A DNA stretch of 64,000 nt, from the NCBI RefSeq assembly GCF_000384415.1, contig NZ_ARVU01000001.1, forward strand, positions 1,426,001 to 1,490,000, read 5' to 3'. The notes beneath the pieces were generated by a model. The model searched no databases. It saw only the letters and a program-made list of their open reading frames with translations, and was not told the origin of the DNA. The translations under genes and the position numbers were made by a program. Positions 38,527-56,800 of this stretch are shown in pieces; position 1 is the first letter of the stretch, and each line of letters starts with the position of its first letter. This DNA comes from Cycloclasticus pugetii PS-1. GTDB lineage: Bacteria > Pseudomonadota > Gammaproteobacteria > Methylococcales > Cycloclasticaceae.

Positions 38527-40605
38527 ATGAACAAGCCTACAAAAACTATTGCCGCACTTTGCCTGTTAAATTCTGCAAGTGCCCACGCATTAGGTGTCGG
38601 GGAAATTACAACGTATTCTGCCTTAAATCAGTTGTTAAAAGCGCAGATTCCGCTTGTTGGCTCCAAACAAGAAGACCCCAGCAATATAAAAATAGGCATT
38701 GCTTCAAGAGAGACTTTTGATAAAGCAGGAATTGATAGGCCACACTATCTAACCCAATTAAAGTTCACCCCTGTGCTAGGTAAAAACGGTGAAATTACCG
38801 TTGATGTTCGTTCGACTGCAACCATAAAAGAACCTTTCGTAAACTTTATTCTCGAAGTTGAATGGCCCCAGGGGCGTACATTAAAAGAATTTACTATTCT
38901 TTTAGATCCGCCCATCACAATGTCTGATGTTAGAACCAACCCACTAGAACTACCTCAAACACCCAGCATTACACCAGTAACACCCGTAAACGATGCATCG
39001 GTAACAACATATACACCCCCTACCACTACTGTGCAAACTGCACCTGCCAGTGAATATGGCCCAACAAAAAGTCGCGATACTATCTGGGGTATTGCTAAAA
39101 AACTCATTACTAATAATCGTACTGTCACTCATCAACAAATGATGCTGGCCCTTTATGACAATAACCCAGAAGCCTTCTACAAAGAAAATATCAATGCTTT
39201 AAAAAAAGGAGCGGTGCTTAAACTTCCAAGCACTGAACAGGCAGAAAGCCTCAGCCCTACACAAGCCAGCAATGAATATATTAAACACAATACACTCTGG
39301 TCTTCATCAACTACCGTCTCCAGTACGCCAGCGGCCGTTGCAAAACTAGACCAGAAAGACCAAGCCCTTGCAGCGACATCCGACGTTAAAAAAAAACTTG
39401 AAAATAACCTAGATGAGGCAAAACTAACCTTATTAACACCGAAGCAAGATACTGAAAAAAATATACCTATAGAAGGCAACACCACTGATACCCCAATAGG
39501 TTCAACAAGCTCTACAGAGCAAGCAAACATTGCCATTGAGATGGCTACAACCCTTGAAGAAGAAAACAAAGAGGTTAAATCACGTCTCAATGATTTAGAA
39601 AAACAAGTAGACAAACTACAACGTTTATTAGCTTTAAAAGATGAGCAGCTAGCACAATTACAAGCAGCAAAACCTGTCGTTGCTGAATCAACAGCAACAA
39701 CTGTAAAGCCAGCCCCTATTGACACACCTGTCGAAAAAAATGATAGCAAGGATAATGATAACACCCTTGCCCTTTATGGCGGCGGCGCGCTCCTTGTTCT
39801 ACTTGGGCTATTTTTAGCACGTCGAAAAAAGCAACGTAAGGAAACACAGCCTGAGGACGTATTTTCTGATACACCAGCTGTTGTACCAACTATTGATACA
39901 GACAATACTGATACCTCATCTACTATACTCGAAGAAGAGCCTCTTTTAAGCGAATTCATACCCAGCGAATTCGGCAGCAGTGAACATACCCAAGAAGCGG
40001 ACCCTCTAACAGAGTGTGATGTCTATATTGCTTATGGTCGATTCCAACAAGCAGAAGATCTTATCAAAAGCGCGATAGAATCAGAGCCAGAAAACCTAGC
40101 TCTTAAATTAAAATTGCTTGATGTTTACTTTTCATCCAATAACGCTGAAGCTTTTGAAGAACAGGCCAGTTCATTATCAGACCTAAAAGATTCAGACCCT
40201 GACGCATGGAATAGCATTGTTGATATGGGCATGGACATCTGCCCTGACTCACCACTATTTCTAGCACCAGCAGAAGAAAACATTGAAATTCAAGCAGCAC
40301 CAATTCAAACTGATGACCTTGACCTTGATTTAGAAATACAACAAGACATTGAGCCTGAAGAAGCTAACCACGACGAAGAACCAAAGAGTGAGTTTGAATT
40401 TGATTTTGACCTAATCAAAAATCAAGATACACCACAGGATCTGAGCAACCCTACCAGTGAGAGTATTGAAACCATGTTTTCATTAGCACAAGCTTCTCTC
40501 GAAATGGAAGACACAGAGTCGGCTCGTCAAACATTAGAAGAAATATTGGAGAACGGTAACGATTCCGACAAAGAAAAAGCACAAAAGATGCTCGATAGTT
40601 TGTAA
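38527..40605 (+). CDS. fimV: FimV-like polar/pilus hub protein
   Basis: A 692-residue membrane protein with classic FimV architecture: signal peptide, N-terminal FimV domain (LGVGEITTYSALNQ through LLDPPITMSD), LysM-like segment (TIWGIAKKLI...LKKGAVLKLPS, about 185-238), coiled coil (about 340-385), one membrane helix near residue 418 followed by RRKKQRK, and an acidic cytoplasmic tail with TPR-like repeats and the C-terminal FimV helix pair ending KAQKMLDSL. It is shorter than the 900-residue P. aeruginosa protein. FimV organises polar type IV pili and flagella; pilZ at 8711 is a possible partner. Confidence 0.92.
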   Translation: MNKPTKTIAALCLLNSASAHALGVGEITTYSALNQLLKAQIPLVGSKQEDPSNIKIGIASRETFDKAGIDRPHYLTQLKFTPVLGKNGEITVDVRSTATIKEPFVNFILEVEWPQGRTLKEFTILLDPPITMSDVRTNPLELPQTPSITPVTPVNDASVTTYTPPTTTVQTAPASEYGPTKSRDTIWGIAKKLITNNRTVTHQQMMLALYDNNPEAFYKENINALKKGAVLKLPSTEQAESLSPTQASNEYIKHNTLWSSSTTVSSTPAAVAKLDQKDQALAATSDVKKKLENNLDEAKLTLLTPKQDTEKNIPIEGNTTDTPIGSTSSTEQANIAIEMATTLEEENKEVKSRLNDLEKQVDKLQRLLALKDEQLAQLQAAKPVVAESTATTVKPAPIDTPVEKNDSKDNDNTLALYGGGALLVLLGLFLARRKKQRKETQPEDVFSDTPAVVPTIDTDNTDTSSTILEEEPLLSEFIPSEFGSSEHTQEADPLTECDVYIAYGRFQQAEDLIKSAIESEPENLALKLKLLDVYFSSNNAEAFEEQASSLSDLKDSDPDAWNSIVDMGMDICPDSPLFLAPAEENIEIQAAPIQTDDLDLDLEIQQDIEPEEANHDEEPKSEFEFDFDLIKNQDTPQDLSNPTSESIETMFSLAQASLEMEDTESARQTLEEILENGNDSDKEKAQKMLDSL

Positions 40606-40629
40606 AAAACCACCTTTAATGCGATCGTA

Positions 40630-40659
40630 AGCATAAAAGCTGCACCTCCCTTTTATGCT
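40630..40659 (+). terminator. 10-bp stem-loop downstream of fimV
   Basis: AGCATAAAAG and CTTTTATGCT pair perfectly around a 10-base loop, 24 bp after the fimV stop. There is no T run after it. It is the best candidate for ending fimV transcription in the 270-base gap before soxY; no further gene is seen in that gap. Confidence 0.5.
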
Positions 40660-40875
40660 ATAAAATGCTCAATACGAACGTACGTAGACAAACAAAACCG
40701 ACCCTTTAATAAAGGCACCTTGCTCATTTGCAAAGAGTCTGCTGCTTGATTGTCATAAAGAACCCTACTTGAAAATACGTTTAATAATGACTAAGACTAG
40801 CGACTGCGCAAACGAAGGCTCCATTACAGACGGTTTTCCTTTATAGGTTTTAATCATAAGGCAACTATAAAAGAG

Positions 40876-41334
40876 ATGATTATTTCACGTAGAAAATTTC
40901 TAAAATTATTAGCGGTGGGTGCCAGCACTTGTTTAACCTTGATATCTCCCCTCACTAGTTGGGCGGCATGGGCTAACGATGCCTTTAATGCCGACACTCT
41001 TAATAAGGCATACCAACATTTATTTGGCTCATCGACCCTCATTAACAGTAACGAGGTAAAGCTAAAGGCGCCTAAAACAGCAGAAAATAGCGATGCTGTT
41101 CCTATTTCGATCAAAACCAAGCTAAAAGGTGTCGACTCAATTAGTATTTTTGTACAAGACAACCCTCAACCTTTAACGGCAACCTTTCAAATCCCACCAG
41201 ATACATTAGCATCTGTGTCGACCCGAATTCGTTTAGTTAAAACTAGCACCGTCATCGCTGTTATCAAAGCAGGAGACAAGTTATATAGTAGAAGCCAAAA
41301 AGTAAAAGTCTCATCAAGTGGGTGTACTCGTTAG
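40876..41334 (+). CDS. soxY: SoxY-like thiosulfate-oxidation carrier protein
   Basis: This 152-residue protein begins with a Tat-type signal (SRRKFLKLLAVGASTCLTL) and matches SoxY: AWANDAFNADTLNKAYQHLFG, VPISIKTKLKGVDSISIFV and the Ig-like core. SoxY carries sulfur intermediates on a C-terminal cysteine swinging arm, usually GGCGG. Here the tail reads SSSGCTR, so the cysteine (C150) is kept but flanking glycines are mostly replaced. It pairs with soxZ 45 bp downstream; no soxX, A, B or CD gene is visible. Function as a sulfane carrier is likely, full Sox activity uncertain. Confidence 0.85.
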   Translation: MIISRRKFLKLLAVGASTCLTLISPLTSWAAWANDAFNADTLNKAYQHLFGSSTLINSNEVKLKAPKTAENSDAVPISIKTKLKGVDSISIFVQDNPQPLTATFQIPPDTLASVSTRIRLVKTSTVIAVIKAGDKLYSRSQKVKVSSSGCTR

Positions 41335-41379
41335 CAACTTAATAATTCGTTATTAATCTCATCTTATTTGGAGATATAA

Positions 41380-41682
41380 ATGAAAGTGAGAGCAAAAATA
41401 ATAAATAACATCACTCATGTTAGGGTATTAGCTATACACCCCATGGAAACAGGTGAACGTATTGATAAAGACTCAGGCGAAAGGATATCCGCGAAATATA
41501 TTCAAAAACTTAGCTGCGAACACAACGGTAAAGAAGTTTTTCTAGCACAATTTGGCACATCAATATCTCAAAACCCTTATCTGGCTTTCTCATTTAAAGA
41601 GGGTAAAAAAGGCGATATTTTATCGTTACGGTGGAATGATAATACCGGCGATGTAAAAAAGACTGACACAACCATTAAATAG
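41380..41682 (+). CDS. soxZ: SoxZ-like sulfur carrier partner
   Basis: A 100-residue Ig-like protein with VRVLAIHPMETGERIDKDSG, SAKYIQKLSCEHNGKEVFLAQFG and the NPYLAFSFKEGKKGDILSLRW strand typical of SoxZ. It forms the SoxYZ heterodimer in the periplasm, exported with SoxY since it has no signal of its own. A TTGGAGATATAA ribosome-binding site precedes the start. It converges on fliT with a 14-bp gap. Confidence 0.9.
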   Translation: MKVRAKIINNITHVRVLAIHPMETGERIDKDSGERISAKYIQKLSCEHNGKEVFLAQFGTSISQNPYLAFSFKEGKKGDILSLRWNDNTGDVKKTDTTIK

Positions 41683-41696
41683 CTTATTTCTAACTA

Positions 41697-42005
41697 TTAA
41701 CCTGTTGTTAAATAGGCATTAATAGCTTTATGTGCATGCCCTGCTTGCGACATTTCCATACGAAGGCTATCACGCTGACTCAATAAAAATTGAGTTAGGA
41801 TTTTATTTTTATCTAGCACCAATTGAATACTTTCTGCCAATACTACAGCTTCGATATCTGGCGGTGTTTCAAACAAATGCTGTATGTCTGTATCACGTGC
41901 TTTTTCAAGCTTTACCACTGCATCCCATTCACCCTCTTGAGCTAGCTGAATGAGTTTTTCAGTATCCGCAAGAATAGAGTCAAGGCGTTGTAAATCACTT
42001 AGCAT
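41697..42005 (-). CDS. fliT: FliT-like flagellar chaperone
   Basis: This 102-residue helical protein follows fliS by 5 bp, the usual fliD-fliS-fliT order. Its sequence (LSDLQRLDSILADTEKLIQL, EGEWDAVVKLEKARD) has the small helical-bundle pattern of FliT, a FliD export chaperone. FliT sequences diverge strongly, so the call rests on position, size and the GEWD stretch. Confidence 0.75.
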   Translation of the reverse strand: MLSDLQRLDSILADTEKLIQLAQEGEWDAVVKLEKARDTDIQHLFETPPDIEAVVLAESIQLVLDKNKILTQFLLSQRDSLRMEMSQAGHAHKAINAYLTTG

Positions 42006-42010
42006 AAAAA

Positions 42011-42406
42011 TTAACGTTGCGCGGCATCAGGGCTTATTGCATCCCACCCCATTTTGATCTGACTCAAAAGCTTACCCGCTTCATCAAGCAAGGCAGCATC
42101 ATTCTTAATATTCGCCTGTAATAAAACGTGATTAATATATTCATAAAGTGCATCTAAATTCTTTGATATTTCACCACCTTGTTTGAAATCTAAACTCGCT
42201 CTAAGTCCTTCAATAATTGAAATAGCACTTCCAATTTGCTCACCTTTCTTAGCAACGTGCTGTTGCTTTAAAGCGCTTTTTGCAGACAATATTCGCGATA
42301 AGGCCCCATCCAATAGCATTTGGATTAACTTATGTGGTGATGCGTCCATTACACCACCATGTACGGATGTTTGTTGATACTGTTTTAATGCAGTTGCGCC
42401 ATTCAT
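42011..42406 (-). CDS. fliS: Flagellin export chaperone FliS
   Basis: With ATG at 42406 the product has 131 residues; GGAG stands the right distance upstream. A TTG four codons earlier lies inside that ribosome-binding site and is not credible. ALKQYQQTSVHGGVMDASPHKLIQMLLDGAL is the FliS N-terminal pattern, with EGLRASLDFKQGGEISKNLDALYEYI following. FliS binds the flagellin C-terminus before secretion. Confidence 0.95.
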   Translation of the reverse strand: MNGATALKQYQQTSVHGGVMDASPHKLIQMLLDGALSRILSAKSALKQQHVAKKGEQIGSAISIIEGLRASLDFKQGGEISKNLDALYEYINHVLLQANIKNDAALLDEAGKLLSQIKMGWDAISPDAAQR

Positions 42407-42431
42407 AGGATTCTCCAATTATAAATGTACT

Positions 42432-43814
42432 TTAATTATTACTATTTGAATTATAAGCACCTGGTAAATTAGCCAGCTGCTGTGTTAAAAAATTACTCTG
42501 ATTTTGTAAAGAACTTACCAGTATATCCATGGCGGTAAATTGACTTAATAGCCTACTTTCTAAGGACACTAACCGTCTATCTAGTGCTTCTCGCTGATCG
42601 GCAATATCATCCACGCTGACTTGTATACCGGCTGTTCTAGAATCAATGATTCCATTTGAGCCAATATAACCCTCAATAGCCATATCTAACGTATTGGCGA
42701 TGCCATTACTCGCAGCAAATAATTGTCCAACTTGATCAAAATTACTGTCCAAAGCAGCGTTTAACGTCTCGCTATTTAAGGATAGCTTACCCTCTTCATC
42801 TGTTGTAATACCTAGCTCTGCTAACGTGCTAAAAGGACCTGTAAGCCCAGTCACAGAAGAGGAAATTTCTTGTCTTATTAATGTACTAATACCGCGCAAA
42901 GTAGAGTCGCCCAATAGCAATCCTGCTGATTCTGTCGCCGCATCGTATGAACCCAGTGTATTAAAGGTATCAACTAAGCCGTTATAGTTGGCAATAAAGG
43001 TATCAATCTTAAACGTAATCGCCTCACGGTCTTGCGCAACCGTTAACTGCTCACCTGCACCAACTGAAACAGCATTAATCGTAATACCATCCAGCACATC
43101 CGAAAATGTATTGTTATTACTGCTGATTAATTGACCATCCACTTTTATTTGGCCATCTTGAGCTGCGCTTGGTGTATTTAATTGTGTATTGACTAAACGT
43201 GACAAACCAAATTCATCTGAATTTTCGCCATCACTATCGACTGCTGTTATTGTTATTGCATTATCTAAACCACTAGATGTTGCTGTAAAAACTAATTGTT
43301 GCCCCGAATCGACATTAATAATAGAAGCTGAAACACCTGTATTATCATTGGCAGCATTAATCGCATCTCTAATATCCGTTAGGGTATCTGTTGCATCAAT
43401 CGTTAAAGAAAAAGAATCAGCACCCTGGGTAAATGTTAGGGTGCCGTCTCCTATTGTATCCGTATCAGCAAAACCACTGGTTGTTATCAACTTGTGCGCT
43501 TGTGCTAACTGAACAACTTCAATGCCATATTGCGAGACATCCGCTGTTTCATCAGCCGTCGCAGTAAAAACCTCATCATTACTGGATAAAGCAGACCTGA
43601 GTTGAAAATCCGCTGTATCTTGCAAGTCTCGAACAGCCCCTTGAAAAATAGATAAAGCACTTTTCAAAGAACCAAACGCTGAAATATCACCTAAATATTC
43701 AGCTTCATTAAAGTCAAGCCTGTTTGATTTATCGACACCCTCTGCTTCAACCAACTGAGTGATCAATGTATTAACATCTATTCCAGACCCGATACCTGCT
43801 GATGAAATTGACAT
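42432..43814 (-). CDS. fliD: Flagellar filament cap protein FliD
   Basis: A 460-residue hook-associated protein 2. It opens ISSAGIGSGIDVNTLITQLVEAE, holds a flagellin-IN-like segment (DSFSLTIDATDTLTDIRDAI), and ends with a coiled-coil D0 helix (LVSLESRLLSQFTAMDILVSSL). FliD caps the growing filament. It lies between flaG and fliS. Confidence 0.95.
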   Translation of the reverse strand: MSISSAGIGSGIDVNTLITQLVEAEGVDKSNRLDFNEAEYLGDISAFGSLKSALSIFQGAVRDLQDTADFQLRSALSSNDEVFTATADETADVSQYGIEVVQLAQAHKLITTSGFADTDTIGDGTLTFTQGADSFSLTIDATDTLTDIRDAINAANDNTGVSASIINVDSGQQLVFTATSSGLDNAITITAVDSDGENSDEFGLSRLVNTQLNTPSAAQDGQIKVDGQLISSNNNTFSDVLDGITINAVSVGAGEQLTVAQDREAITFKIDTFIANYNGLVDTFNTLGSYDAATESAGLLLGDSTLRGISTLIRQEISSSVTGLTGPFSTLAELGITTDEEGKLSLNSETLNAALDSNFDQVGQLFAASNGIANTLDMAIEGYIGSNGIIDSRTAGIQVSVDDIADQREALDRRLVSLESRLLSQFTAMDILVSSLQNQSNFLTQQLANLPGAYNSNSNN

Positions 43815-43867
43815 AATGGTTTCCTTATTTACATAATACTGAAATAACTATGCAAAAAGCTTGCCTC

Positions 43868-44275
43868 CTACGCACTTTCGTTTACCAACAAACCACGAGC
43901 CGCATCTTCTGATTGCGCCTTGTTTTCAGCCAAATACGCTGCCATTGCTAACACATCTTCAGACGGAAAAGTCCGGATAACATCACCCGACTCCTTATCT
44001 GTTACCGTTATAACGGAACGACCAGTATCATCATGCACACTAAATTGTATAGATCGTTGAACGTTTTGAACAAAGCTATTCAAATCACTCACCGTTTCTT
44101 CAATTTTTTGTGCAGCTGATGACTGGCTACCGCTTACCTCTTCCGGCAAAGCTTGACCACCCATTGACTGATTACTTACCTTCTGTGCAATAACACTATC
44201 AGTTGATACGGTAACATTAGACGCCTTAGACGTTACCGCCTTTGGTGCCGAACTAACTAAATTTAATGTTTCCAT
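43868..44275 (-). CDS. flaG: FlaG family protein
   Basis: This 135-residue protein has a variable N-terminus and a conserved C-terminal FlaG domain (LNSFVQNVQRSIQFSVHDDTGRSVITVTDKESGDVIRTFPSEDVLAMA). FlaG affects filament length in several bacteria. It sits between fliC and fliD, and AGGAGGTAGTT precedes its start. Confidence 0.93.
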   Translation of the reverse strand: METLNLVSSAPKAVTSKASNVTVSTDSVIAQKVSNQSMGGQALPEEVSGSQSSAAQKIEETVSDLNSFVQNVQRSIQFSVHDDTGRSVITVTDKESGDVIRTFPSEDVLAMAAYLAENKAQSEDAARGLLVNESA

Positions 44276-44295
44276 AACTACCTCCTGTTTAGATT

Positions 44296-44327
44296 AATAC
44301 TGGCTCTATTTTCATAAAGCCAGTATT
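44296..44327 (-). terminator. Terminator between fliC and flaG
   Basis: AATACTGGCT pairs with AGCCAGTATT around a 12-base loop just after the fliC stop, with TAATCT following leftward. It should end most fliC transcripts, with limited readthrough to flaG-fliD. Confidence 0.65.
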
Positions 44328-44340
44328 TACCCTTAACGCC

Positions 44341-46197
44341 CTATTGCAACAAGGCTAATACGTTTTGTGGTAACGAGTTAGCTTGAGACAAAATTGACAC
44401 ACCTGCTTGCTGCAGAATTTGCGCTCTAGTCAACGCTGCAGTCTCTGCTGCAAAATCAGCATCTTGAATACGTGAGCGCGCTGCACTTAAGTTTTCTGAG
44501 GTAGTTGCTAGGTTAGCAATAGTAGATTCAAAACGGTTTTGAATCGCACCAAACGTACTACGCAAAGAACTCACAGCCGTTAATGCAGAATCAACCTGAC
44601 GAATGGTCGTTTCTGAATTAGCCACAGTATCCACAGCAGCTGTCGATAAACTTCCAGATACATCTGTTGATGAAGCTAGACCCAATGTTGTCAGACCAGT
44701 AGTTCCCGTCACTGTGATGCTTTCGTTAGAAACAACGTTCAAGGTACCATCAGTATTAAGCGCCGCAGAACCCTCACCATTTAACGCTGTATTAATAGCG
44801 TCTACCAGGCTTTGTGCTGTGGTATATGTACTATCAGCAACTGTAAAAGCTGTCTGAGTACCTATTTGTATACTAAAATCACCTGCTACTGTCACTGATG
44901 TGCCAGCTACCCCAGCTACATCACCGTCTGTGATTGCAGTTACCGTCTCTGAACCCGCCAATGCAAAGTTACCAGTAGAAGCATCCTCATCGGTAAAAGT
45001 AATATTAGTACCATCACTTTCTGCCGTAAAACCTGCGCTAGCATAACCTGTTGATCCAGTTATGGCTGCCAACAAATCAGCCGCATCCGTTATGTTTGTA
45101 TCCAGTGTTACTGTGAACAAGCTTCCACCTGGTGCCGTAACAGTAAAGTTACTATTTGCTGATGTGTCAGCATCTGAACCAGTTACATCTTGCACAATTG
45201 CAATGTTGCCCGGTGTTGCAAATGAAGCGCTAACAGTACGTCCGACTGTTGCTGCTGTACCTTCATTTACATCTGACAATGTAACGGTATCAGTATTATC
45301 CGACTCTGTCGTTAATCCAGATAGGGCAGATGTAGTTAACGAATCTGCTTTTGCTGCAGCAAACGCTGCGGCAAAGGAGTCTGCATTTGTTGCAACCGAA
45401 TCAGCTGCAAAATCAGTAGCAATTGTTACATTATTAGCATCAACAACAGTATAAACATCAGCGTTACCAGAGCCTGCATCTTGGAATGTAAAAACTACGC
45501 CTTCGACAGTGATCGTATCATTTGCCGCCGCAGGAGCATTTGCAAATGTGATTGTATCTGAACCCGCAGTGGCCGGTACCGTAGAGTAATCGGCAACAAG
45601 ACCAGCAGCAGCCGTTGTAAAGGTTGCGGCAGTACCATCAATTAGATCAGTTAGATTAGTCGATGATGTTGCTGTTGCTACCGCTCCAATAGAGTCCAGA
45701 CGTGTACTTGTTGATAAGTCTAAGCTGATCGTTTCGCCTACATTTGCACCCACTTGAAACTGGGCGCTACCAAACGTGCCATCAAGAATTTTTTGACCGT
45801 TAAATGATGTTTGTCCTGCGACTCTATCAATCTCAGCTAAACGTTGTTGCACCTCTAAGTTTAACGCCGCTCTATCTGATGATGAGTTTGTTGAGTTAGC
45901 AGACTGAATCGCTAGCTCACGAATACGTTGCAAGTTGTTACCAATCTCACCCAATGCGCCTTCAGCTGTTTGAGAAAGAGAGATAGCATCGTTTGCATTT
46001 CGAGACGCTTGGTTTAAACCACGAATTTGTGTGGTAAAGCGCTCTGAAATGGCAAGGCCGGCCGCATCATCTTTAGCACTGTTAATACGTAAACCGGAAG
46101 AAAGTCTTTGTAACGACGTGTTTAACGAACTTTGTGATGTATCTAAGTTACGTTGTGCCGTCAAAGACGCAATATTACTGTTAATAAATTGAGGCAT
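44341..46197 (-). CDS. fliC: Flagellin FliC with large central domain
   Basis: A 618-residue filament protein. Conserved D0/D1 blocks flank it: [20 protein letters not shown] and [16 protein letters not shown] at the N-terminus, and [15 protein letters not shown]-like helices through [18 protein letters not shown] at the C-terminus. The central region (about 170-530) is Ala/Thr/Ser/Asp-rich, almost free of lysine, and contains at least one flagellin-IN-like segment ([20 protein letters not shown]). It has no cysteine. A canonical FliA promoter lies upstream and a terminator follows, so it is probably transcribed alone. Confidence 0.96.
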
Positions 46198-46291
46198 TTT
46201 ATTGCTCCTATGTAAGCTTAATGCTTACTTTTTCTAAAACATGACGGATATATCTTTGAGTATGACTAGATATTCACCGCCTCCGCTTAAG

Positions 46292-46318
46292 GTATCGGCG
46301 CTATAAAAATATTCTTTA
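46292..46318 (-). promoter_or_regulatory. Sigma-28 (FliA) promoter of fliC
   Basis: Leftward sequence reads TAAA, 15 bases, GCCGATAC, matching the FliA consensus TAAA-N15-GCCGATAA with one mismatch. It lies about 95 bp before the fliC start. Confidence 0.9.
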
Positions 46319-46376
46319 GGATTTATTTTAAGTTTTTTGTAGGTTACAACTAAGTGGCATCACCAAGCCCCAAACA

Positions 46377-46422
46377 TCGACTCTATGAGTCAAAAATATT
46401 GACACCACATTTATAGAGTCGA
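46377..46422 (-). terminator. Inverted repeat after flgL
   Basis: TCGACTCTAT and ATAGAGTCGA are perfect 10-base arms separated by 26 bases, just after the flgL stop and before the fliC promoter. It may end the flgKL transcript, but there is no T tract and the loop is long. Confidence 0.4.
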
Positions 46423-46438
46423 CCTAGAGTTTATTTAA

Positions 46439-47674
46439 TTATAATAAATTAAATAATGATAAATTTTGCACTTTAACGAATGACTGCTGTGCTGCCTGCA
46501 AACTCACTATTTGAAGATTAAATCGACTGATCGCTTCTGCCATATCAAGGTCTTCAACCTGTGACTTTGCGCTTTGAAGGTTTAATAAGAAGTCTTGATT
46601 GGTTTCTTGTTGGCTATCTAGTGCATTTAGCCTTGCACCAATTTGAGAACGCACATCTAAAACACGGTTCAACGCGGTATCTAACTGATCCAAGTGATCA
46701 TATAAAGGGATAGAAACATTCGTTGCACTGGTAGCGCTTGTAAGCGATACATCAATTGCCAGCTCTCCTTCACCTGGCGTGTTAGCAATGATACGGAGTG
46801 TATTATTAGTTTGATCGAGATCAACTGTTGAATCATTACTGGTAACTGCCGCATTTAAAAGAGCAGCTACGTCATCGCCCGTTACAGCAGCAGAAATATC
46901 CACCGCTATGCTTGGTGGTGCAATCGCTGGCCCCGTCCCATCATCAAACTCATAATTAATACCGTTGATAGTCATTGACTGCGCATCTAAAGGCACCGAA
47001 TTAAAGGTTAACTCTGTTTCTTCTACCGCCGGTCTATTGGTCGCTAAATCCGTCGCTAAACTGTATAACGTAGTGAACACATCCTCTGCATTGCCATTTT
47101 TATCTTGCAGATTAAAAAACAATTCTGCACCTGAATTATTGTCTGACACCGTACGGTTTTCACCAATCTGTATCAAACGCTGACCTTGATCGCCTTGAAA
47201 ACTAAATACACCCGTGGCAGCCGAACCGGTAACCGCCTGTGTTTGTCCTTTAAAACCTGAATACAGGTAATCACCATTAGCATCTTTGGTATTGGCGAGC
47301 GCCACCATTTCGTCAAGACGCTGAAACATCTCGTTTGCTATAGATTGTCGGTCAGCTGCCGTATTTGTATCGTTGTACCCCTGCACGGCTAATTCACGGA
47401 CACGGTGTAAACTATTGGTTACACTTTGCAAGGTTGTATCAGACAACGACAAACGATTTTCTGCGTAATTTATATTCGTTTGAAACTGCGTGATTCGGCT
47501 GATGGATTGGTTAAAGTCGAGGACCTGAGCTGCACCCGACGGGTCATCAGATGGTGTAAGTATCCGTTTACCTAATGAGATTTGTTGCTGCGCTTGGTTA
47601 ACTTGAGCCTGCTGGAACATAATCGCATTAATACCCAATTGTTGAGCAAGGCTTGTTGAAATTCTATCGACCAT
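46439..47674 (-). CDS. flgL: Flagellar hook-associated protein 3 (FlgL)
   Basis: This 411-residue hook-filament junction protein has flagellin-like ends: FQQAQVNQAQQQISLGKRIL...PSDDPSGAAQVL and a C-terminal helix (FNLQIVSLQAAQQSFVKVQ then LSLFNLL). Its middle (about 220-330) is an insertion similar in style to that of FliC. Its start overlaps the flgK stop by one base (TAATG). Confidence 0.94.
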   Translation of the reverse strand: MVDRISTSLAQQLGINAIMFQQAQVNQAQQQISLGKRILTPSDDPSGAAQVLDFNQSISRITQFQTNINYAENRLSLSDTTLQSVTNSLHRVRELAVQGYNDTNTAADRQSIANEMFQRLDEMVALANTKDANGDYLYSGFKGQTQAVTGSAATGVFSFQGDQGQRLIQIGENRTVSDNNSGAELFFNLQDKNGNAEDVFTTLYSLATDLATNRPAVEETELTFNSVPLDAQSMTINGINYEFDDGTGPAIAPPSIAVDISAAVTGDDVAALLNAAVTSNDSTVDLDQTNNTLRIIANTPGEGELAIDVSLTSATSATNVSIPLYDHLDQLDTALNRVLDVRSQIGARLNALDSQQETNQDFLLNLQSAKSQVEDLDMAEAISRFNLQIVSLQAAQQSFVKVQNLSLFNLL

Positions 47675-49602
47675 TATCTGAAAGCTCCTAATAGCGTTTC
47701 GAAAATTGTACGAGACGTTAACACAACTTGACTAGCGGCTTGATACGCTTGTTGAAAACGAATTAAATTAGCCGCCTCCTCATCTAAATTAACACCACTG
47801 ACAGCATCTTTGGAGGCGATGGTTTGCGCCAAAAGACCATTTTGTGCAGCCGCATTAACTTCAGCCGACTGTGTCCGGCGACCCACATCGGCAATAACTT
47901 GACCGTAAACATCTTGAAATGAGGCGGTACCACCGGACAAACTCAAATTCGTTTGCAACCCAGCAAGGAAATGCCCATTTCGGTTATCACCCGTGCCACC
48001 TGAATTATCAACCAATGAGAAGGTATCACCCTCATCAGGCTGACCGGTTAGGGTAAAGCTAATATCGCCAAAACCAGCGACATTAACCGTATAGCTATCG
48101 CCGTTATTTGTTGCTGCATCGTAGGCCAAGGGCCCTCCCGTAGCATTACTAACCGTATATTGTTTTAATGTATTGTCATACGTTAAAACAACACCAGCCG
48201 GTAACGATGATGCTGATAAACCAGTCACCGCCACATTACTTAAACCGCCAGTTCCAGAGTTGCTGACGGTTTGCTCTGAGACAACCGGAAGCGCAACAGC
48301 AATATCTTTAGGGTCAGTTAACGCTAATGAGAAATTTTCAGCCGCATAACGTGTTGGGCTGATCACTCTATACTCATTATTAACATTTGCCGATGATAAA
48401 TCGAAGGTTAGCCCATCGTAATCAACCGATGCTCCAGACGATATAACACCACTGATAGAGGTATTATCAGATAACCGTGTAATGTTATAGGCTGTATTTG
48501 GTAGCGCCGTCCCATCCGTTGTAACACGATAATCGCTATTAATTATTTGTGATGGATCGGAAACACTGACAGCCAATGAGCCTGCGTTGGCATCGGCCTT
48601 AACATGGGTAATATTTGCTGTACTAAAAAAGTTTAGCCCCTGTTCGCCCTCTAGGTCGATACCATTGGCATGTTGATTATTTACTGAGAATGACAGACCG
48701 ATAGCTATTTCACCTAAGGCATGAACCGCTTCATCTAACACCTCATCTTTAAAACGTAAGGCTCCCCCTATTTCACCCCCTGTCATAAACTGGGTAATAG
48801 CTGTATCAGCGCCGCCCTGCTGAAAAATAACATCAACTCTAGTAGGGTCTAATGTAGACGGCTGCAAAGCCAGTGTATTGTTCGTATTACCTAAGACTAA
48901 AGTTTGCCCATTACCAATAAAAACATTGACCGCGCCATTTTCTTGCTCATTGGTTTTTACATTCACTAACTGAGACAAATCATCAATTAATTTATCTCGT
49001 TGATCCAATAAATCATTCGGCAAGTTACCATCCGAACCACCTAATGCGCTGGCGATCCTGTCATTAATCAGAGCAATATTTTCAGATAGGCTATTTACCT
49101 CGTCTATATTTCCCTGTAACGAACCGTTAACTTGCGTGCTAACACCATCAAACAATCGGTCTAATGTAGCAAAACGGTTTTCCAACACCTCGCCTTCAGT
49201 TAATAGCACTTGGCGTGCTGGAATAGATGTTGGATCATCTGCAACAGCTTGAACCGCATTGAAAAAATCTTGTAAGGCCGTACTTAACCCAATATTTTCA
49301 TCCGCTAACACACCATCAATTTGGTTAGCAAAGTTTAAATAAGTCTCTAATTCAGACACAGCAGTACTACTGCTTCTATATTGTGTGCTTAAAAAAGCAT
49401 CATAAAGCCTACTAACATTAGTCGCACTAACACCCGAACCAATATACCCAGCACCAGCCAGTTGTGGATTATTAGCATCTAACTCGACCCGTTGACGGCT
49501 ATAACCTTCTGTTGAAGCATTGGCAATATTATGACTGGTCGTGTCAAGCACACTTCTAAAGGCAGTTAAACCAGACAAGCCATTGAGTAATAAGTCACTC
49601 AT
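47674..49602 (-). CDS. flgK: Flagellar hook-associated protein 1 (FlgK)
   Basis: A 642-residue junction protein. It starts LLLNGLSGLTAFRSVLDTTS with HNIANASTEGYSRQRVEL, the FlgK-type rod/hook motif, and ends LIRFQQAYQAASQVVLTSRT. It is coupled to flgL, and 61 bp after flgJ, where a possible sigma-28 element lies. Confidence 0.95.
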   Translation of the reverse strand: MSDLLLNGLSGLTAFRSVLDTTSHNIANASTEGYSRQRVELDANNPQLAGAGYIGSGVSATNVSRLYDAFLSTQYRSSSTAVSELETYLNFANQIDGVLADENIGLSTALQDFFNAVQAVADDPTSIPARQVLLTEGEVLENRFATLDRLFDGVSTQVNGSLQGNIDEVNSLSENIALINDRIASALGGSDGNLPNDLLDQRDKLIDDLSQLVNVKTNEQENGAVNVFIGNGQTLVLGNTNNTLALQPSTLDPTRVDVIFQQGGADTAITQFMTGGEIGGALRFKDEVLDEAVHALGEIAIGLSFSVNNQHANGIDLEGEQGLNFFSTANITHVKADANAGSLAVSVSDPSQIINSDYRVTTDGTALPNTAYNITRLSDNTSISGVISSGASVDYDGLTFDLSSANVNNEYRVISPTRYAAENFSLALTDPKDIAVALPVVSEQTVSNSGTGGLSNVAVTGLSASSLPAGVVLTYDNTLKQYTVSNATGGPLAYDAATNNGDSYTVNVAGFGDISFTLTGQPDEGDTFSLVDNSGGTGDNRNGHFLAGLQTNLSLSGGTASFQDVYGQVIADVGRRTQSAEVNAAAQNGLLAQTIASKDAVSGVNLDEEAANLIRFQQAYQAASQVVLTSRTIFETLLGAFR

Positions 49603-49655
49603 AGGGCTGCTCTTTTTAAATGTTGATATGTCATATTATGTCTTCCATTGTTAAC

Positions 49656-49682
49656 GTATCGGCCTAACTGGCAAAACCTGAA
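49656..49682 (-). promoter_or_regulatory. Possible sigma-28 promoter of flgKL
   Basis: GCCGATAC occurs leftward at the end of flgJ, about 54 bp before flgK; 15 bases upstream is TTCA, two matches to TAAA. In other bacteria flgKL are FliA-dependent, which supports the site, but the -35 part is weak. Confidence 0.5.
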
Positions 49683-50590
49683 GCTGGAACGGTAAGACCA
49701 CTAAGCTGCGCACGATTAAGGATCGATAGTATTTTTTGGGCATACGCAGGATCGGTTGCATATCCTGCTTTTTGTAGGCCTTTTACAAACCCTTCGTTTG
49801 AATCTACTTGAGTTAACGCCTGCTGATAACGTGGGTTTTGTTGCAAGAACTGCACATAATCGTTAAAGCTCTCTTGGTAACTATCGTATGCTCGGAAAGT
49901 TGCTTGACGTTTTTCTGCAATACCATTTTCGTACTCAACCGTTTGTACTGAAACAGTTTTGCCTTCCCAGCCATGCGAGGCTTTTATACCGAATAAATTA
50001 TGACTACTTTGGCCTATTTTATTTCGCATAATGTGTTTACCCCAGCCGGTTTCTAGGGCAGATTGGGCTAATAATACTTTGGCATCCACACCCAGCTCTT
50101 GCGCTGCTTGTTGTGCCTGCGGCCACATTTTATGAATAAAATCTTCTGGTGAGTTAATGGCTGTTACGTTACTTGAAGGCTCAGCCGTTTTCACTTCTTG
50201 TAAGGCCCCTTGAATTCTTCGTACCGAGGCTTCTCGATAATCAGACAACCCCTGTGCCGCCACCATGTTTTCGCTTTTTACTTGGCCACCCATTTGCTGA
50301 ACAATCATATCCGCCAACCCCAAATGCCCCCGTTTGGATAAATCTAGAGAAATTTGATCGTCATACATCGATTCATAAAACTTTGTTTTTTCACCATCAA
50401 TTAACTCGGAATCAGGCACCGTATCTCGCATGCTTTTAAGCATCATTTTTAAAAACACGGTCTCAAATTGACGCGCCACTTGCTCTAGGGCTTCTTGTTT
50501 TTCACCCTGCCCGCCAGTGGCCTTAGCTTTTAATTGCGCTAAGCCATTAAAGTCTGCATAAACATCTGCTTGTGAGCCGTTTATATTCAT
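49664..50590 (-). CDS. flgJ: Flagellar rod assembly protein / muramidase FlgJ
   Basis: This 308-residue protein has the N-terminal rod-capping domain (LEQVARQFETVFLKMMLKSM, about 33-110) and a C-terminal glucosaminidase domain (LLAQSALETGWGKH with the catalytic glutamate, then NLFGIKA). The two-domain form is typical of gammaproteobacteria. Overlaps the flgI stop by one base. Confidence 0.95.
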   Translation of the reverse strand: MNINGSQADVYADFNGLAQLKAKATGGQGEKQEALEQVARQFETVFLKMMLKSMRDTVPDSELIDGEKTKFYESMYDDQISLDLSKRGHLGLADMIVQQMGGQVKSENMVAAQGLSDYREASVRRIQGALQEVKTAEPSSNVTAINSPEDFIHKMWPQAQQAAQELGVDAKVLLAQSALETGWGKHIMRNKIGQSSHNLFGIKASHGWEGKTVSVQTVEYENGIAEKRQATFRAYDSYQESFNDYVQFLQQNPRYQQALTQVDSNEGFVKGLQKAGYATDPAYAQKILSILNRAQLSGLTVPASGFAS

Positions 50591-51693
50591 TAGATAACAA
50601 TCAGCTCTGCAGTTAATGCGCCCGCGCCTTTTAGCGCCTCTAAGATCGCCACCAAGTCACTTGGACCCGCACCCACTTGGTTAACAGCCCGCACAATTTC
50701 ATCCAGCGATACACCAGGATCAAAAACAAACATGCGTTTATCTTCTTCGGTAACGGTTATATCTGTTTGTGGCGTGACAACTGTTTGCCCATCCGAAAAC
50801 CCGCCTGGCTGGCTAACATTTAAATTCTCGTTAATGGTCACTGTTAAATTACCGTGAGAGACCGCCGCTGGACGTACTTTGACCTGATTGTTTATGACAA
50901 CCGTACCCGTTCTTGAGTTAATAATAATACGCGCTGCTGATTGTGCCGGCTGCACTTCTAAATTTTCAAGCAATGACATAAAAGCAACCCGTTGAGCTGG
51001 GTCACGTGGCATATTCACTTTAACGCTGCCACCGTTTATTGAATGTGATGTTTGCGGACCAATAGCTTGGTTTATCGACATTGCTAAGCGATTAGCAGTT
51101 GTAAAGTCAAAGGTATGCAGGTTTAACGTTAAGGAATTACCATCATTAAAGGGGCTATAAACAGAGCGCTCTACCGATGCACCATTAGGGATATTTCCTA
51201 CGGTGGGTATATTCACACTTATTTTAGAACCATCATTACCCGATGCACTCAAACCACCCACAACTAGATTACCTTGCGCTATCGCATACACTTTTCCATC
51301 AGCACCTTTTAAAGGAGACATTAATAAGCTACCGCCGCGTAAACTTTTCGCCTCGCCAATCGCATTAACGGTCACGTCAATCATTTGCCCTGGTGTTGCA
51401 AAAGCAGGTAATGAAGCGTGAATAATAACGGCTGCAACATTTTTAGATTTTATTTGCACATTTGATGGGATTTTAACGCCCATTTGACTCAACATACTGC
51501 GCAAACTCTGGGAAGTAAAATCCCCCGATTTCACCTTGTCGCCGGTTCCATTTAAACCAACCACCACACCATATCCCACTAATTGGTTTGAGCGAACACC
51601 TGTAATAGAGGCTAGGTCTTTAATTCGCTCGGCATTAGCGTTTGTGATGCTCATTGCTAACAAAACCAATACTATTTTAAAATATCTCATCAC
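50590..51693 (-). CDS. flgI: Flagellar P-ring protein FlgI
   Basis: A 367-residue periplasmic ring protein: signal peptide [20 protein letters not shown], then [31 protein letters not shown] and [20 protein letters not shown]. The C-terminal [20 protein letters not shown] is diagnostic. FlgI forms the P ring with help from FlgA encoded at 57108. Confidence 0.97.
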
Positions 51694-51699
51694 CTTCTC

Positions 51700-52386
51700 C
51701 TAAAACGGGAACACCGCACTGATAAAGAAACGTGCTAACCAACCAATTTTATTAGCATCTGCCAGTGCACCTTCACCTGTATACATGATAGTGGCATCGG
51801 CAATTCTTGTAGATTCCACACTATTATCGGGGTTAATATCGGTTGGGCGAATAATGCCCGATAAGCGAATATACTCATTACCCTGATTCAAACGTACACG
51901 CTTTTCACCACGAATTTTTAAATAGCCATTCGGTAAGACATCTATCACGCTAACGGTAATGCTACCGCTGAGGCTATTATTTTGTGTGCTTTCTGTCTCA
52001 CCTGCAAAGTCACTCGCTGAAGCCAAACTGCTATCAAGATTCAAACCAAATTTAGAGGGGTCACTCATACCCAAGATGGTAGGCGTAGAAATTGAGGTAC
52101 TGTTATCTTTTTTGATATCAGTATCGGCTTGTTTCTTTGCATTGGTTTTTTCAACCAAATTAATCGTTAAAATATCACCGATTCTTCTGGCTCTTATATC
52201 TTCAAATAAACTCACCTCATAACCCGCTTGATAGATAGAACCATTATTGCTTTGTGGCACTTGATAAGAGGTCGGCTTAGCAGGCACATACTCCGGATCG
52301 TGGCGAGGTTTACTCATATTATCCATCATCGCGCAACCGGATAGCATGAACACTAAGACAAAGAGTTTAAGGGTTTTCATTATCAT
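51700..52386 (-). CDS. flgH: Flagellar L-ring lipoprotein FlgH
   Basis: This 228-residue lipoprotein has a lipobox (FMLSGC) and the FlgH core: SLFEDIRARRIGDILTINLV, GSITVSVIDVLPNGYLKIRGEK and RLSGIIRPTDI. It ends FISAVFPF. A start two codons later (52380) has better spacing to AAGGA and is an alternative. It forms the outer-membrane ring. Confidence 0.96.
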   Translation of the reverse strand: MIMKTLKLFVLVFMLSGCAMMDNMSKPRHDPEYVPAKPTSYQVPQSNNGSIYQAGYEVSLFEDIRARRIGDILTINLVEKTNAKKQADTDIKKDNSTSISTPTILGMSDPSKFGLNLDSSLASASDFAGETESTQNNSLSGSITVSVIDVLPNGYLKIRGEKRVRLNQGNEYIRLSGIIRPTDINPDNSVESTRIADATIMYTGEGALADANKIGWLARFFISAVFPF

Positions 52387-52396
52387 GATTCCTTGT

Positions 52397-53185
52397 TTAT
52401 AAATCCTGCATTAAACGTTGTAGCATTTGATCTGAATTTGAGATGGCCTTTGAGTTCATTTCATACGCACGTTGAGTTTCGATCATGCTGACCAACTCTT
52501 CTACAACGTTCACGTTAGAGGTTTCTAATGAACCACCTGATAACAGACCCACGCCTGTTTCGCCCGGTGTCGTTACTGTTGGGCTACCACTGGACAAAGA
52601 CTCCCTAAACTGATTTTCACCAATGGGGTCTAGACCTGTTGGGTTAATAAAGTCGGCCAGTGTAATATTGCCTACCTGACTTGGCGTAGAATTACCGGCT
52701 TGTAAAACTGACACTGTGCCATCCACACCGACAGTAACACTTAAGGCATCTTCTGGAATGGAAATAGAGGGCTCTAATGGGTAACCGCCTGATGTTACCA
52801 TTTGGCCATCGCCATCCAGTTTAAAGCTGCCATCACGTGTATAGGTAATACTGCCATCAGGTCTTAAAATCTGGAAAAAACCACGGCCATTTACCGCAAT
52901 ATCAAGCGAGTTTCCTGTTTGCTGAATAGTCCCTTGGGTATGCGTTTTTTCAGTAGCAACCGTACGAACCCCTGTACCAATCTGCAACCCCGTCGGCAAG
53001 ATATTATCTTGTGACGATTGCGCTCCAACTTGTCGTACATTTTGATACAACAAATCTTCAAACACCGCTCTCGACTTTTTGTAACCGGTTGTATTAACGT
53101 TGGCTAGGTTGTTTGAAATAACCGACATCCGCGTTTGTTGCGCTTCTAGTCCCGTTTTACTAATCCACATTGCTTGCGTTGACAT
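52397..53185 (-). CDS. flgG: Flagellar distal rod protein FlgG
   Basis: A 262-residue rod protein: [21 protein letters not shown] then [29 protein letters not shown] and the C-terminal [20 protein letters not shown]. Length and [15 protein letters not shown] identify FlgG. Confidence 0.97.
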
Positions 53186-53194
53186 TTAACTCTC

Positions 53195-53935
53195 CTAACT
53201 GACGCGCATCAATTGAGCGCTTGCTGCTTCGTTTTCACTGACTGTTTTCATCATTTTGACCTGTAACTCAAAATTTCGAGCCAGCTCAATCATGCTGACC
53301 ATCGCGTTGACAACACTCACATTACTACCTTCTACAGATCCTGATACCAAACGCACTTCGGCACTGGGTTGAGCATCTAGTCCGCTTTTTAATCGGAATA
53401 AACCATCCTTACCTTTTTCAACATCTGCTAGCTCAGGGTTCACCAATTTAATTCTATCGATGGTTGATAATGTTGCCGCACTATCACCCAGTGGAATAAT
53501 ACTAATCGTGCCATCGCTTCCAATTTCCACCTTGTCAGCCTCTGGTATCGCCACAGGACCACCGCCACCCATCACTGCTAAGCCTGTACCGGTTGTTAGC
53601 ACCCCATTGGGTGTAATTCTCAAATCGCCCGCACGGGTATAGGCTTCGGTGCCATCTTCTGCCTGAACAGCTAACCAGCCATCACCATTAATAGAGACAT
53701 CTAAGTCTCGGCCTGTTGACTGTATGGTGCCGTGGTCAAAGTCTATTCCAGGGCGCTCAGCCATCGCATAAACATTCGACGGAAGCCCTGCGCCATATAC
53801 TGGCATGCTTCTAAATTGAGACAAATCGGCTTTAAAGCCCGTGGTATTCGCATTCGATAAATTATGTGAATTCACCGCTTGCGCCAACATTGCTTGCTTG
53901 GCACCGCTCATTGCTACATAAAGGCTACTGTCCAT
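53195..53935 (-). CDS. flgF: Flagellar proximal rod protein FlgF
   Basis: This 246-residue rod protein starts MDSSLYVAMSGAKQAMLAQ, with HNLSNANTTGFKADLSQFRS and the C-terminal EGSNVSVVNAMVSMIELARN. It lies between flgE and flgG as in the canonical operon. Confidence 0.96.
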   Translation of the reverse strand: MDSSLYVAMSGAKQAMLAQAVNSHNLSNANTTGFKADLSQFRSMPVYGAGLPSNVYAMAERPGIDFDHGTIQSTGRDLDVSINGDGWLAVQAEDGTEAYTRAGDLRITPNGVLTTGTGLAVMGGGGPVAIPEADKVEIGSDGTISIIPLGDSAATLSTIDRIKLVNPELADVEKGKDGLFRLKSGLDAQPSAEVRLVSGSVEGSNVSVVNAMVSMIELARNFELQVKMMKTVSENEAASAQLMRVS

Positions 53936-53962
53936 TTAATTTCTCTCTTCTTGAATCAGTGA

Positions 53963-55243
53963 TTATCGAATATTAATAATGGCCGTTTGGATTTCATTCT
54001 CAGTTGAAATCGCTTGAGCATTCGCTTGGAAATTACGCTGAGCAGTAATCAAACTCACCAACTCCGTTGCAATATCAACATTAGAGGCTTCAAGCGCACC
54101 AGATTGAAGTGAGCCAAAGCCTGCCGTACCAGCAGAACCAATCACTCGGTCTCCAGCAGCAAATGTATCGGCCCAAGACGTATCGCCTAATTGACGCAAA
54201 CCATGTGAATTGGGAAAGGTTGCCAACGCTACCTGACCTAACTCTGTGGATTGACCATTGGTGAACGTTGCAGAAACAATACCTGCCTCATCAACACTGA
54301 TGCCGCTTAGACGACCAGATGCAAATCCATCTTGACTCAGTGAGTTAACAGCAAAATCGCCGCCATATTGGGTAGTATCCGAGTAATCAAAGTTTAACGC
54401 TAAGTTTGCAGCCCCATTACTCATTGGCAATGCATCAAAGGCAACATTGCCACTACTGGGCGTTGCCGCCTCAGCAATACTTTGAAATGAACCGAGGCTA
54501 TCAAAGGTCATCGTCAAAAAGTCATCGGCTCCCGCATTTAATGTTAATGGGTTACCATCTACATACGTATGCACTTGCCATTCATTACTACTGGGGTCAC
54601 TTGCAACGTAATACATCGTGGCAGGAAAATCATTGCCTAATGAGTCAAAAACCGTTGTTGATGTTGAATGGTTGTAACTATCCGCATCTGTTGCACTAAA
54701 TTCTGTTGGATCAATCGGGAAAGTCGTATACGTTGATGGAACAGTTTGTTGAGAATCCAGGTTTAATGTAGGTTCAACACTGGTTGTTGCCGACGGTGCA
54801 GAGTCACCCGTACTTAACTGTAATGAGGCTAGGTTCCCAGTATTAAATGTACCATTACCATTTGATGGGAATGTTTGTAACTGTCGTCCAGAACTATCAA
54901 CAACAAAGCCATCTTTATCGGTTGAATAAGCACCCGCCCGAGTATAAACATTAGTTCCATTATCACTTAGAACAAAAAACCCATCACCGTTGATCGCTAG
55001 ATCTAAACTACTGGAGGTAAATTCAACATTACCTTGGCCAAACTGCTGCGACACACTGGCAACACGAACACCACTACCCGGTGTATTACCAGACACACCT
55101 GTAAAAGAGGTAGCAAACACATCTGCAAACTCTGTACGGGACTCTTTAAAACCATTTGTAGAGGCATTGGCAATATTGTTACCAATCACCGATAAATCAG
55201 TTGCTGAGGCATCAAGCCCACTTAATGAAGTACGAAATGACAT
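53963..55243 (-). CDS. flgE: Flagellar hook protein FlgE
   Basis: A 426-residue hook protein: SFRTSLSGLDASATDLSVIG, NNIANASTNGFKESRTEFAD, VFATSF, and the C-terminal EASNVDIATELVSLITAQRN. The central domain is Ser/Thr/Asp-rich. It is preceded by the cap gene flgD. Confidence 0.96.
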   Translation of the reverse strand: MSFRTSLSGLDASATDLSVIGNNIANASTNGFKESRTEFADVFATSFTGVSGNTPGSGVRVASVSQQFGQGNVEFTSSSLDLAINGDGFFVLSDNGTNVYTRAGAYSTDKDGFVVDSSGRQLQTFPSNGNGTFNTGNLASLQLSTGDSAPSATTSVEPTLNLDSQQTVPSTYTTFPIDPTEFSATDADSYNHSTSTTVFDSLGNDFPATMYYVASDPSSNEWQVHTYVDGNPLTLNAGADDFLTMTFDSLGSFQSIAEAATPSSGNVAFDALPMSNGAANLALNFDYSDTTQYGGDFAVNSLSQDGFASGRLSGISVDEAGIVSATFTNGQSTELGQVALATFPNSHGLRQLGDTSWADTFAAGDRVIGSAGTAGFGSLQSGALEASNVDIATELVSLITAQRNFQANAQAISTENEIQTAIINIR

Positions 55244-55262
55244 AGTATTCTCCTAAACGTGT

Positions 55263-55943
55263 TTAAAATATTCTTGAAACATTGCTAAATGGCACACTGC
55301 CTAGACCCGACAGGTTCAGTTGCAATGGTTTACCTAGGCCGCCCAAGGTAACGCTGTCAACATCTGCCGAAATTTGTGTATCCAATTCAAAATTTTGACC
55401 GTCGATACGCGCTTTAGCATCAACGTTATAAAGCCCCGGAGACGCCACCGTTCCATCTGAACGTTTGCCATCCCATGAGAAAGCAACAGGGCCTGCAGAT
55501 TGTGTTCCTAGTGGAATGGTCTGCACTATCTGCCCTGCTTGGTCAGTAATATTGATTGAAACGTCTGGTGAACTGGTCGGTAACGTCAGCTCTCCATCAA
55601 TTGAGCCCCCCGCTGTTAAGACACCTGCCTGTAGCGGAACATTAACCCTTCTTCCCACTAAATTAGCTGCCTGTAGAGCTTGGTCATTTGATACAGATGA
55701 CGCAAATTCTGAGAAAGAGGTATTCAATCCATCAATGCCAGTGACTGTACTAAATTGTGCTATTTGACCTAAGAAATCACCACTTTCCATTGGCTTCATG
55801 GGGTCTTGGTTATTTAGCTGTGTAACCATCAGTTTGAGGAAATCGCCCTGCCCTAGATCACTGTTTGATTTACTGGTATTTGTCGCCGTACTTTGTTGAG
55901 CAAGGCCTAAACTTTGTAGCGTATTAAAATCGACTTCTGACAT
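55263..55943 (-). CDS. flgD: Flagellar hook cap protein FlgD
   Basis: This 226-residue scaffolding protein has LGQGDFLKLMVTQLNNQDPM then KPMESGDFLGQIAQFSTV, followed by the FlgD Ig/tudor-like domain (FSWDGKRSDGTVASPGLYNV). It caps the hook during assembly and lies between flgC and flgE. Confidence 0.95.
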   Translation of the reverse strand: MSEVDFNTLQSLGLAQQSTATNTSKSNSDLGQGDFLKLMVTQLNNQDPMKPMESGDFLGQIAQFSTVTGIDGLNTSFSEFASSVSNDQALQAANLVGRRVNVPLQAGVLTAGGSIDGELTLPTSSPDVSINITDQAGQIVQTIPLGTQSAGPVAFSWDGKRSDGTVASPGLYNVDAKARIDGQNFELDTQISADVDSVTLGGLGKPLQLNLSGLGSVPFSNVSRIF

Positions 55944-55955
55944 GGTTATTCTCCG

Positions 55956-56375: not shown

Positions 56376-56377
56376 GC

Positions 56378-56770: not shown

Positions 56771-56800
56771 CTGTCACTCCTGTTTCGTTGAAAACAATAA

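Follow-up and report, generated by a model that had tools for sequence, protein, structure and literature searches.

What does a SoxYZ pair do when no other sox gene stands beside it? In the canonical Sox system, the arm of SoxY must enter SoxA for thiosulfate to be loaded. The soxYZ pair of Cycloclasticus pugetii PS-1 lies in an analysed stretch of 64,000 nucleotides (the window), and its features are listed in Table 1. The initial annotation had described it as isolated between fimV and the flagellar cluster, with a normal SoxZ and a SoxY tail, SSSGCTR, that keeps Cys150 and lacks GGCGG. It had also proposed that the pair may work with other partners or with a scattered Sox system.

The description of the genes was borne out. 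Both open reading frames are intact, and the translated SoxY ends with KVKVSSSGCTR and a stop; Cys150 is kept and GGCGG is absent. SoxY scored 138.7 bits against TIGR04488 (cut-off 125, E 1.9e-40) and 107 bits against PF13501. Its Tat signal passed TIGR01409 (20.7 bits, cut-off 16.7), whereas the PF10518 score of 14.5 bits lay below the 22.7 of that model. SoxZ scored 113.9 bits against TIGR04490 (cut-off 76) and 108.7 bits against PF08770. The family scores of both subunits are well beyond chance, and both matched by sequence the solved SoxY/SoxZ chains 2nnc, 2ox5, 2oxg, 2oxh, 4uwq and 1v8h. As a thiosulfate carrier of the TIGR04488 type, soxY has the score, the C-terminal cysteine, the Tat signal and the adjacent soxZ, and lacks the GGCGG arm. 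A GGAG ribosome-binding site was found by eye ahead of soxZ (41370-41373). Between 40550 and 41760 we counted one promoter-like site, compared with 3.4 in shuffled sequences, and one terminator-like site, compared with 1.0. The flanks were identified by a FimV_N match on the left and, downstream of soxZ on the opposite strand, by matches of fliT, fliS and fliD to PF05400, PF02561 and PF07195/PF02465, respectively.

Table 1. Features of the soxYZ locus, in window positions.
Feature	Position	Strand	Evidence and remarks
fimV, left neighbour	38527-40605	+	FimV_N PF25800; synteny
270-bp gap, place of soxC-soxD-soxX in related species	40606-40875	.	blastn/blastx
soxY	40876-41334	+	152 aa; TIGR04488, PF13501, TIGR01409; carrier subunit, Tat signal, altered arm
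SoxY carrier arm	41305-41331	+	residues 144-152, KVSSSGCTR; alignments
Cys150 codon of SoxY	41323-41325	+	
soxZ	41380-41682	+	100 aa; partner subunit; TIGR04490 113.9 bits
14-bp gap, place of soxA-soxK-soxB in G005 and G013	41683-41696	.	synteny
fliT, right neighbour	41697-42005	-	PF05400 60.3 bits; synteny

The host genome is a single contig of 2,383,924 bases, rated 99.99% complete. A profile search of the whole genome returned one SoxY match, one SoxZ match and a single PF13501 match, and no match to SoxA (TIGR04484) or SoxB (TIGR04486). For SoxC (TIGR04555), nothing in the genome exceeded the cut-off of 420; there was one partial match of 28 bits, of a type that also occurs in related species possessing a true SoxC. 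SoxX and SoxD were judged at the locus, where soxX and soxD are missing from their place beside soxY. The Sox thiosulfate-oxidising system therefore lacks SoxA, SoxB and SoxC genome-wide and SoxX at the locus. A second canonical soxYZ within a full operon elsewhere, which the initial annotation had considered as a case against an unusual role for this pair, was not found among these matches.

The origin of the pair became apparent when the sox loci were read across the genus, in which 18 genomes were searched (the present genome is G000). Ten of them (G002, G005-G008, G011-G013, G015, G016) carry soxY, soxA and soxB in the order soxC-D-X-Y-Z-A-(K)-B. Here, family models identified soxA, soxB and soxC; soxD and soxX were recognised from their position and cytochrome c domains, and soxK, which has no Pfam match, from its position alone. 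Of the 11 related genomes in which the upstream side was read (G014 counted), 10 have fimV to the left of the operon and G016 does not. On the right, fliT follows soxB in G005, G010 and G013 and not in G007, G008, G011, G012, G015 or G016, and both fimV and fliT flank the operon in G005 and G013. In G010 soxB adjoins fliT, and the assembly has no soxY match. The right neighbour is a sucA-like gene in G007, G011, G015 and G016, and other genes in G008 and G012. In the present genome soxYZ stands alone at the operon site, separated from fimV by 270 bp and from fliT by 14 bp. Searches of the left gap with blastn and blastx against the intact operons (E 0.01) gave no sox remnant. It is near certain that the pair is an in-place remnant of the full soxCDXYZA(K)B operon still carried by related species. 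The pair is thus isolated, as first described, because it is left over from a collapsed operon, an origin that synteny adds and that was invisible from the sequence of the window alone.

The same bare soxYZ was found between fimV and fliT in G001 and G004, and G009 has a bare pair with four extra genes ahead of fliT. Among these extra open reading frames (L056:10724-15442), a type II/IV secretion ATPase domain occurs in one, and CopD and cytochrome c domains in another. G017 shows the operon in mid-decay: soxC is frameshifted and followed by a piece of an IS1595-type transposase, soxD is broken (~36-53% identity), and soxYZ is intact with a SoxY that ends with GGCGG. A possible soxA trace of 27 residues is weak (E 0.009), and soxX, soxK and soxB were not seen at the G017 locus. 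The G014 contig ends after soxY, and G003 (80% complete) has no match to soxY, soxA or soxB. We also observed an 81-aa open reading frame between soxB and the sucA-like gene in G007. The sucA-like gene stands at window position 59759, and it follows soxB in G007, G011, G015 and G016 (L049, L051, L052, L053), which means that the flagellar stretch of ~17 kb (window 41697-59500) is missing there; these four genomes may have no flagella, or may encode them at another place.

To place the losses, we used a core tree built from the asd, adk, PPIase, ispA-like and AFG1-like genes of the window and sucA. In this tree the intact G008 lies beside ((G001, G017), (G000, G004)), with G009 elsewhere; core-gene support was 0.997 for G001 with G017 and 0.93 for G000 with G004. 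A concatenated tree that included the flagellar genes joined G000 to G017 and was rejected, being contradicted by the core genes. The flagellar cluster has probably recombined, judging from these topologies, and for this reason the core tree was preferred and the selection test was repeated on the SoxYZ gene tree. The flagellar genes and soxYZ each give a tree that differs from the core tree, which points to recombination or uneven rates; recombination may have moved alleles. As the soxYZ codons favour the gene tree by ~37 lnL (-7259.15 vs -7296.11), the number of independent losses is only approximate. soxA and soxB were lost at least twice and soxC probably four times, separately in G001, G017, G000/G004 and G009, because G017 keeps a recognisable soxC and its sister G001 has none. 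A recent loss would look the same as an old one in these data.

In the orphans, the arm of SoxY changed more than the body. Intact operons of the genus encode KVTIGGCGG where the present SoxY has KVSSSGCTR. In the 11 operon-borne copies (G014 included), 80 SoxY columns are invariant. Among the corresponding cells of the four orphans, G000, G001, G004 and G009, the arm had 18 changes in 36 cells, compared with 44 in 224 for the body and 12 in 60 for the signal region (Fisher p 2e-4 for arm vs body, with cells treated as independent). In G017, 2 of the 80 columns changed. Cys150 is unchanged in all orphans. We also considered a docking surface, since nine SoxY and five SoxZ operon-invariant positions changed in at least three of the four orphans (expected 3.1 and 0.9). 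This apparent footprint of a lost SoxXA/SoxB contact was rejected, because SoxA-bearing species beyond the genus also differ at most of the changed positions, including SoxY D59, V77, A132 and G134 and SoxZ K19, K30 and A69, which suggests that these sites are simply mutable. Conservation in those species is better at SoxY G72, arm column 147 and SoxZ R26.

The initial annotation had suggested comparing SoxY tails among relatives, and this was done across the order. In the order, 83 of 101 genomes had a SoxY match, and the best SoxY locus was read in each (16 in the genus, 67 outside); G014 was left out of the tail count. SoxA was above cut-off in 21 genomes, and the same 21 have soxA beside soxY. 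SoxY ends exactly with GGCGG in 21/21 genomes with SoxA and in 2/61 without it (G017 and G061). The other SoxA-less tails were GGCG, GGCA, GGCGTG and similar, GGCEI, GSCGP, SGCGA, xGCD/R/S and the types of the genus orphans. A cysteine lies within the last six SoxY residues in 83/83 loci. Five genomes (G023, G029, G034, G069, G097) have SoxA and no SoxB match, and they keep GGCGG, which indicates that the tail follows SoxA and not SoxB. On the order tree, each of the two traits changed six times, with three independent contrasts on supported branches, too few for significance (sign test p 0.25). A tail that follows SoxA fits the view that the active-site cavity of SoxA must accommodate the SoxY arm (PMC4423706).

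In the class, 369 genomes were considered and 70 soxY loci were read, picked from the better-scoring matches to a model that is itself named for GGCGG. With SoxA at E 3e-45 or better, 64 of 65 loci end with GGCGG, and G161 ends with GGCG. The half of the rule that couples GGCGG to SoxA holds out of sample in this selected set of loci. Where SoxA was absent or below cut-off, four of five loci end with GGCGG and one with GGCGN, which speaks against a loosened arm without SoxA; these were the best-scoring five of the 37 class genomes outside the order that have SoxY and no SoxA above cut-off, a biased choice, and one of these genomes is 75% complete. Altogether, SoxA was absent or below cut-off in ~37 of 191 class genomes with a SoxY match, besides two of the order, and many members of the class may carry a bare SoxYZ. 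SoxY proteins of family f6 (L119, L120, L122, L124, L125, L129, L136) have tails such as SQGCR, SEGCD and TKGCD, with the cysteine next to last; the one member scanned scored 50 bits on TIGR04488, and the family may represent another type of SoxY.

Selection on the orphan pair was estimated with a self-written branch codon model, in which the end branches of the four orphans were set apart. On the core tree, ω was 0.058 for the background and 0.121 for the pooled orphans (lnL -7296.11, compared with -7303.37 for one ratio and -7387.22 for orphan ω = 1). The gene tree gave 0.057 and 0.100 (lnL -7259.15; one ratio -7263.71, ω = 1 -7402.63), and 0.055 and 0.117 when the arm codons were removed (lnL -7032.21 vs -7039.16). 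The tree including flagellar genes gave 0.058 and 0.099. Orphan ω = 1 was rejected on both the core and the gene tree. A six-ratio fit yielded 0.054 for G000, 0.28 for G001, 0.045 for G004, 0.090 for G009, 0.063 for G017 and 0.058 for the background. In G001, synonymous sites are unsaturated and fixing ω = 1 costs 5.6 lnL; when G001 is kept at the background value, letting the other branches vary improves the fit by 1.35 lnL (-7302.02 vs -7303.37). The rise in ω is almost wholly that of G001, and relaxation is clear only there. The branch of the present genome is not raised, and its synonymous sites are saturated. Synonymous branch lengths reached 1.9 in G000 and 2.7 in G004, and fitting SoxZ alone drove the G000 branch to its bound; single-branch ω values are therefore unreliable for these genomes.

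A second measure, free of this saturation, divides the non-synonymous change of SoxY by the synonymous change of asd and adk. By our arithmetic, the ratio is 0.21 in G000, 0.32 in G001, 0.17 in G004 and 0.21 in G009, compared with 0.07 in G017; the ten genomes with intact operons range over 0.02-0.16, with a median of 0.06. asd and adk themselves showed no clear rise on the orphan branches (0.030-0.045 vs 0.034). A wholly neutral orphan branch would be expected to bring ~21-39 stops per genome, whereas none was observed, and soxYZ of the five orphan genomes (G017 included) has no stop or frameshift. Taken together, the rates and the stops indicate that the orphan pair changes faster than operon-borne copies and is still selected. 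Orphan soxYZ is under purifying selection.

These results bear directly on the main rival, slow decay, according to which the pair is a relic, functionless without SoxXA, SoxB and SoxCD and merely undeleted, with the loosened arm as the first sign. The elevated SoxY change is what a decaying gene would show and speaks against a carrier role; the ω of G001, the loosened arm itself and the operon visibly decaying in G017 also favour decay. Nevertheless, we regard decay as the less likely reading. To a first-order estimate, zero stops allow at most ~8-15% of neutral time per orphan branch, below the ~12-28% that, by our arithmetic, the extra amino-acid changes need. Moreover, the reading frames are undamaged, ω = 1 is rejected on both trees, the cysteine is kept in every SoxY locus of the order, and soxYZ is the part of the operon that survives in all five orphan genomes.

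Another rival is that a specific known pathway recruited the pair as one of its regular components, for instance sulfide use by sulfide:quinone reductase or flavocytochrome c, SoxT/TusA import, or a quinoprotein dehydrogenase as for fused SoxYZ. For Hyphomicrobium, it has been called conceivable that the SoxY cysteine passes sulfur on to SoxT1 transporters (PMC11582611), and a survey describes fused SoxYZ genes next to carbon (alcohol/methanol) genes (PMC11237559). With fimV and fliT as immediate neighbours and no fused quinoprotein-type carrier in a genome that has a single PF13501 match, we consider such recruitment improbable. For the scattered Sox system of the initial annotation, split sox loci in other bacteria can be cited (PMC11237559). 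As far as the SoxA and SoxB models can tell, however, it is already refuted, in a one-contig genome whose best SoxC hit is partial and in which SoxX was sought at the locus rather than by its own model. Reviving it would take enzymes too divergent for those models, and the same bare pair in three other species and the mid-decay of G017 make it very unlikely.

The reading that we favour, and hold to be the probable one from the comparisons above, is that the pair is a retained SoxXA-independent periplasmic sulfur/thiol carrier. It is more likely than simple decay, and the retention of the bare pair in related species hints at a function proper to the carrier. The survivor would be functional, consisting of a SoxY with an export signal, its SoxZ partner and one cysteine on a short arm. 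Once SoxXA is gone, GGCGG would no longer be demanded and the arm sequence could drift. Cys150 may still carry sulfane sulfur, sulfite or another thiol adduct, which would be handed to a periplasmic or membrane acceptor, donor and acceptor having no need of GGCGG. The earlier proposal of other partners has thus become likelier, through purifying selection on the orphan pair and the retention of soxYZ in other lineages, and the alternative of a scattered system is not supported. More tentatively, and with less than even confidence, SoxYZ might have a widespread second life as such a carrier: GGCGG would be imposed by the need to serve as a SoxA substrate, and upon SoxXA loss the arm would be remodelled while the cysteine is still selected, as repeatedly in this genus, with one genome caught in the act.

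Within one genus, intact, decaying and bare loci form a natural series along which the full operon shrinks to the carrier, and this series makes the question of what SoxYZ carries without SoxXA testable. There is also a practical consequence. As the present SoxY passes the curated thiosulfate-carrier model in a genome without SoxA or SoxB matches, a thiosulfate-oxidation call based on soxY is unsafe, and TIGR04488, named for GGCGG, is an annotation trap for SoxA-less genomes. The SoxY tail may help to separate SoxA-coupled carriers from others. We note that TIGR04488 passes non-GGCGG SoxY in the SoxA-less G000, G004, G009, G027, G030 and G065, with G001 (124.9), G025 (120.2) and G022 (50) falling below its cut-off of 125.

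Our literature search found no report linking the GGCGG arm to the presence of SoxA or describing this operon collapse. Several known systems are nonetheless close. The soxCDXYZAB operon reported for a Cycloclasticus MAG (PMC12510462) has the gene order of the intact operons of related species, whereas the present genome retains soxYZ only. With SoxYZ of the periplasmic Sox system (TIGR04488/TIGR04490), the present pair shares scores above the curated cut-offs, the Tat signal, SoxZ and the C-terminal cysteine; it differs in having no GGCGG arm, in a genome with no SoxA or SoxB match and no SoxC above cut-off. The cysteine of GGCGG is described as the established sulfur-binding site (PMC6067878). 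SoxY swinging-arm variants, sorted by arm into signatures 1a to 4, are described as polyphyletic, and changes around the arm cysteine are likewise seen in the present SoxY (PMC11237559). That survey dropped sequences without GGC, so the present SoxY, with SGC, would be left out, and the sections of it available to us do not tie the arm to SoxA. The fused quinoprotein-associated SoxYZ (TIGR04557) and the AACIE-arm SoxY (TIGR04487) are also SoxYZ-like carriers, kept apart from the thiosulfate carrier by NCBIfam. In contrast to the former, soxY and soxZ are here separate genes (66.3 bits of 140); in contrast to the latter, the present SoxY reaches 49.7 bits of 172 and its arm reads SGCTR, not AACIE. 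A parallel is found in methanotrophs, in which SoxYZ without SoxA, SoxB and SoxX is already known: Methylococcus is reported to keep SoxYZ and SoxCD without these three, and the role of the truncated pathway is called not clear (PMC8527097). Like Methylococcus, the present genome keeps SoxYZ without SoxA and SoxB (and, at the locus, without SoxX); unlike it, the present genome lacks SoxC too, and here the origin of the pair in operon collapse is visible.
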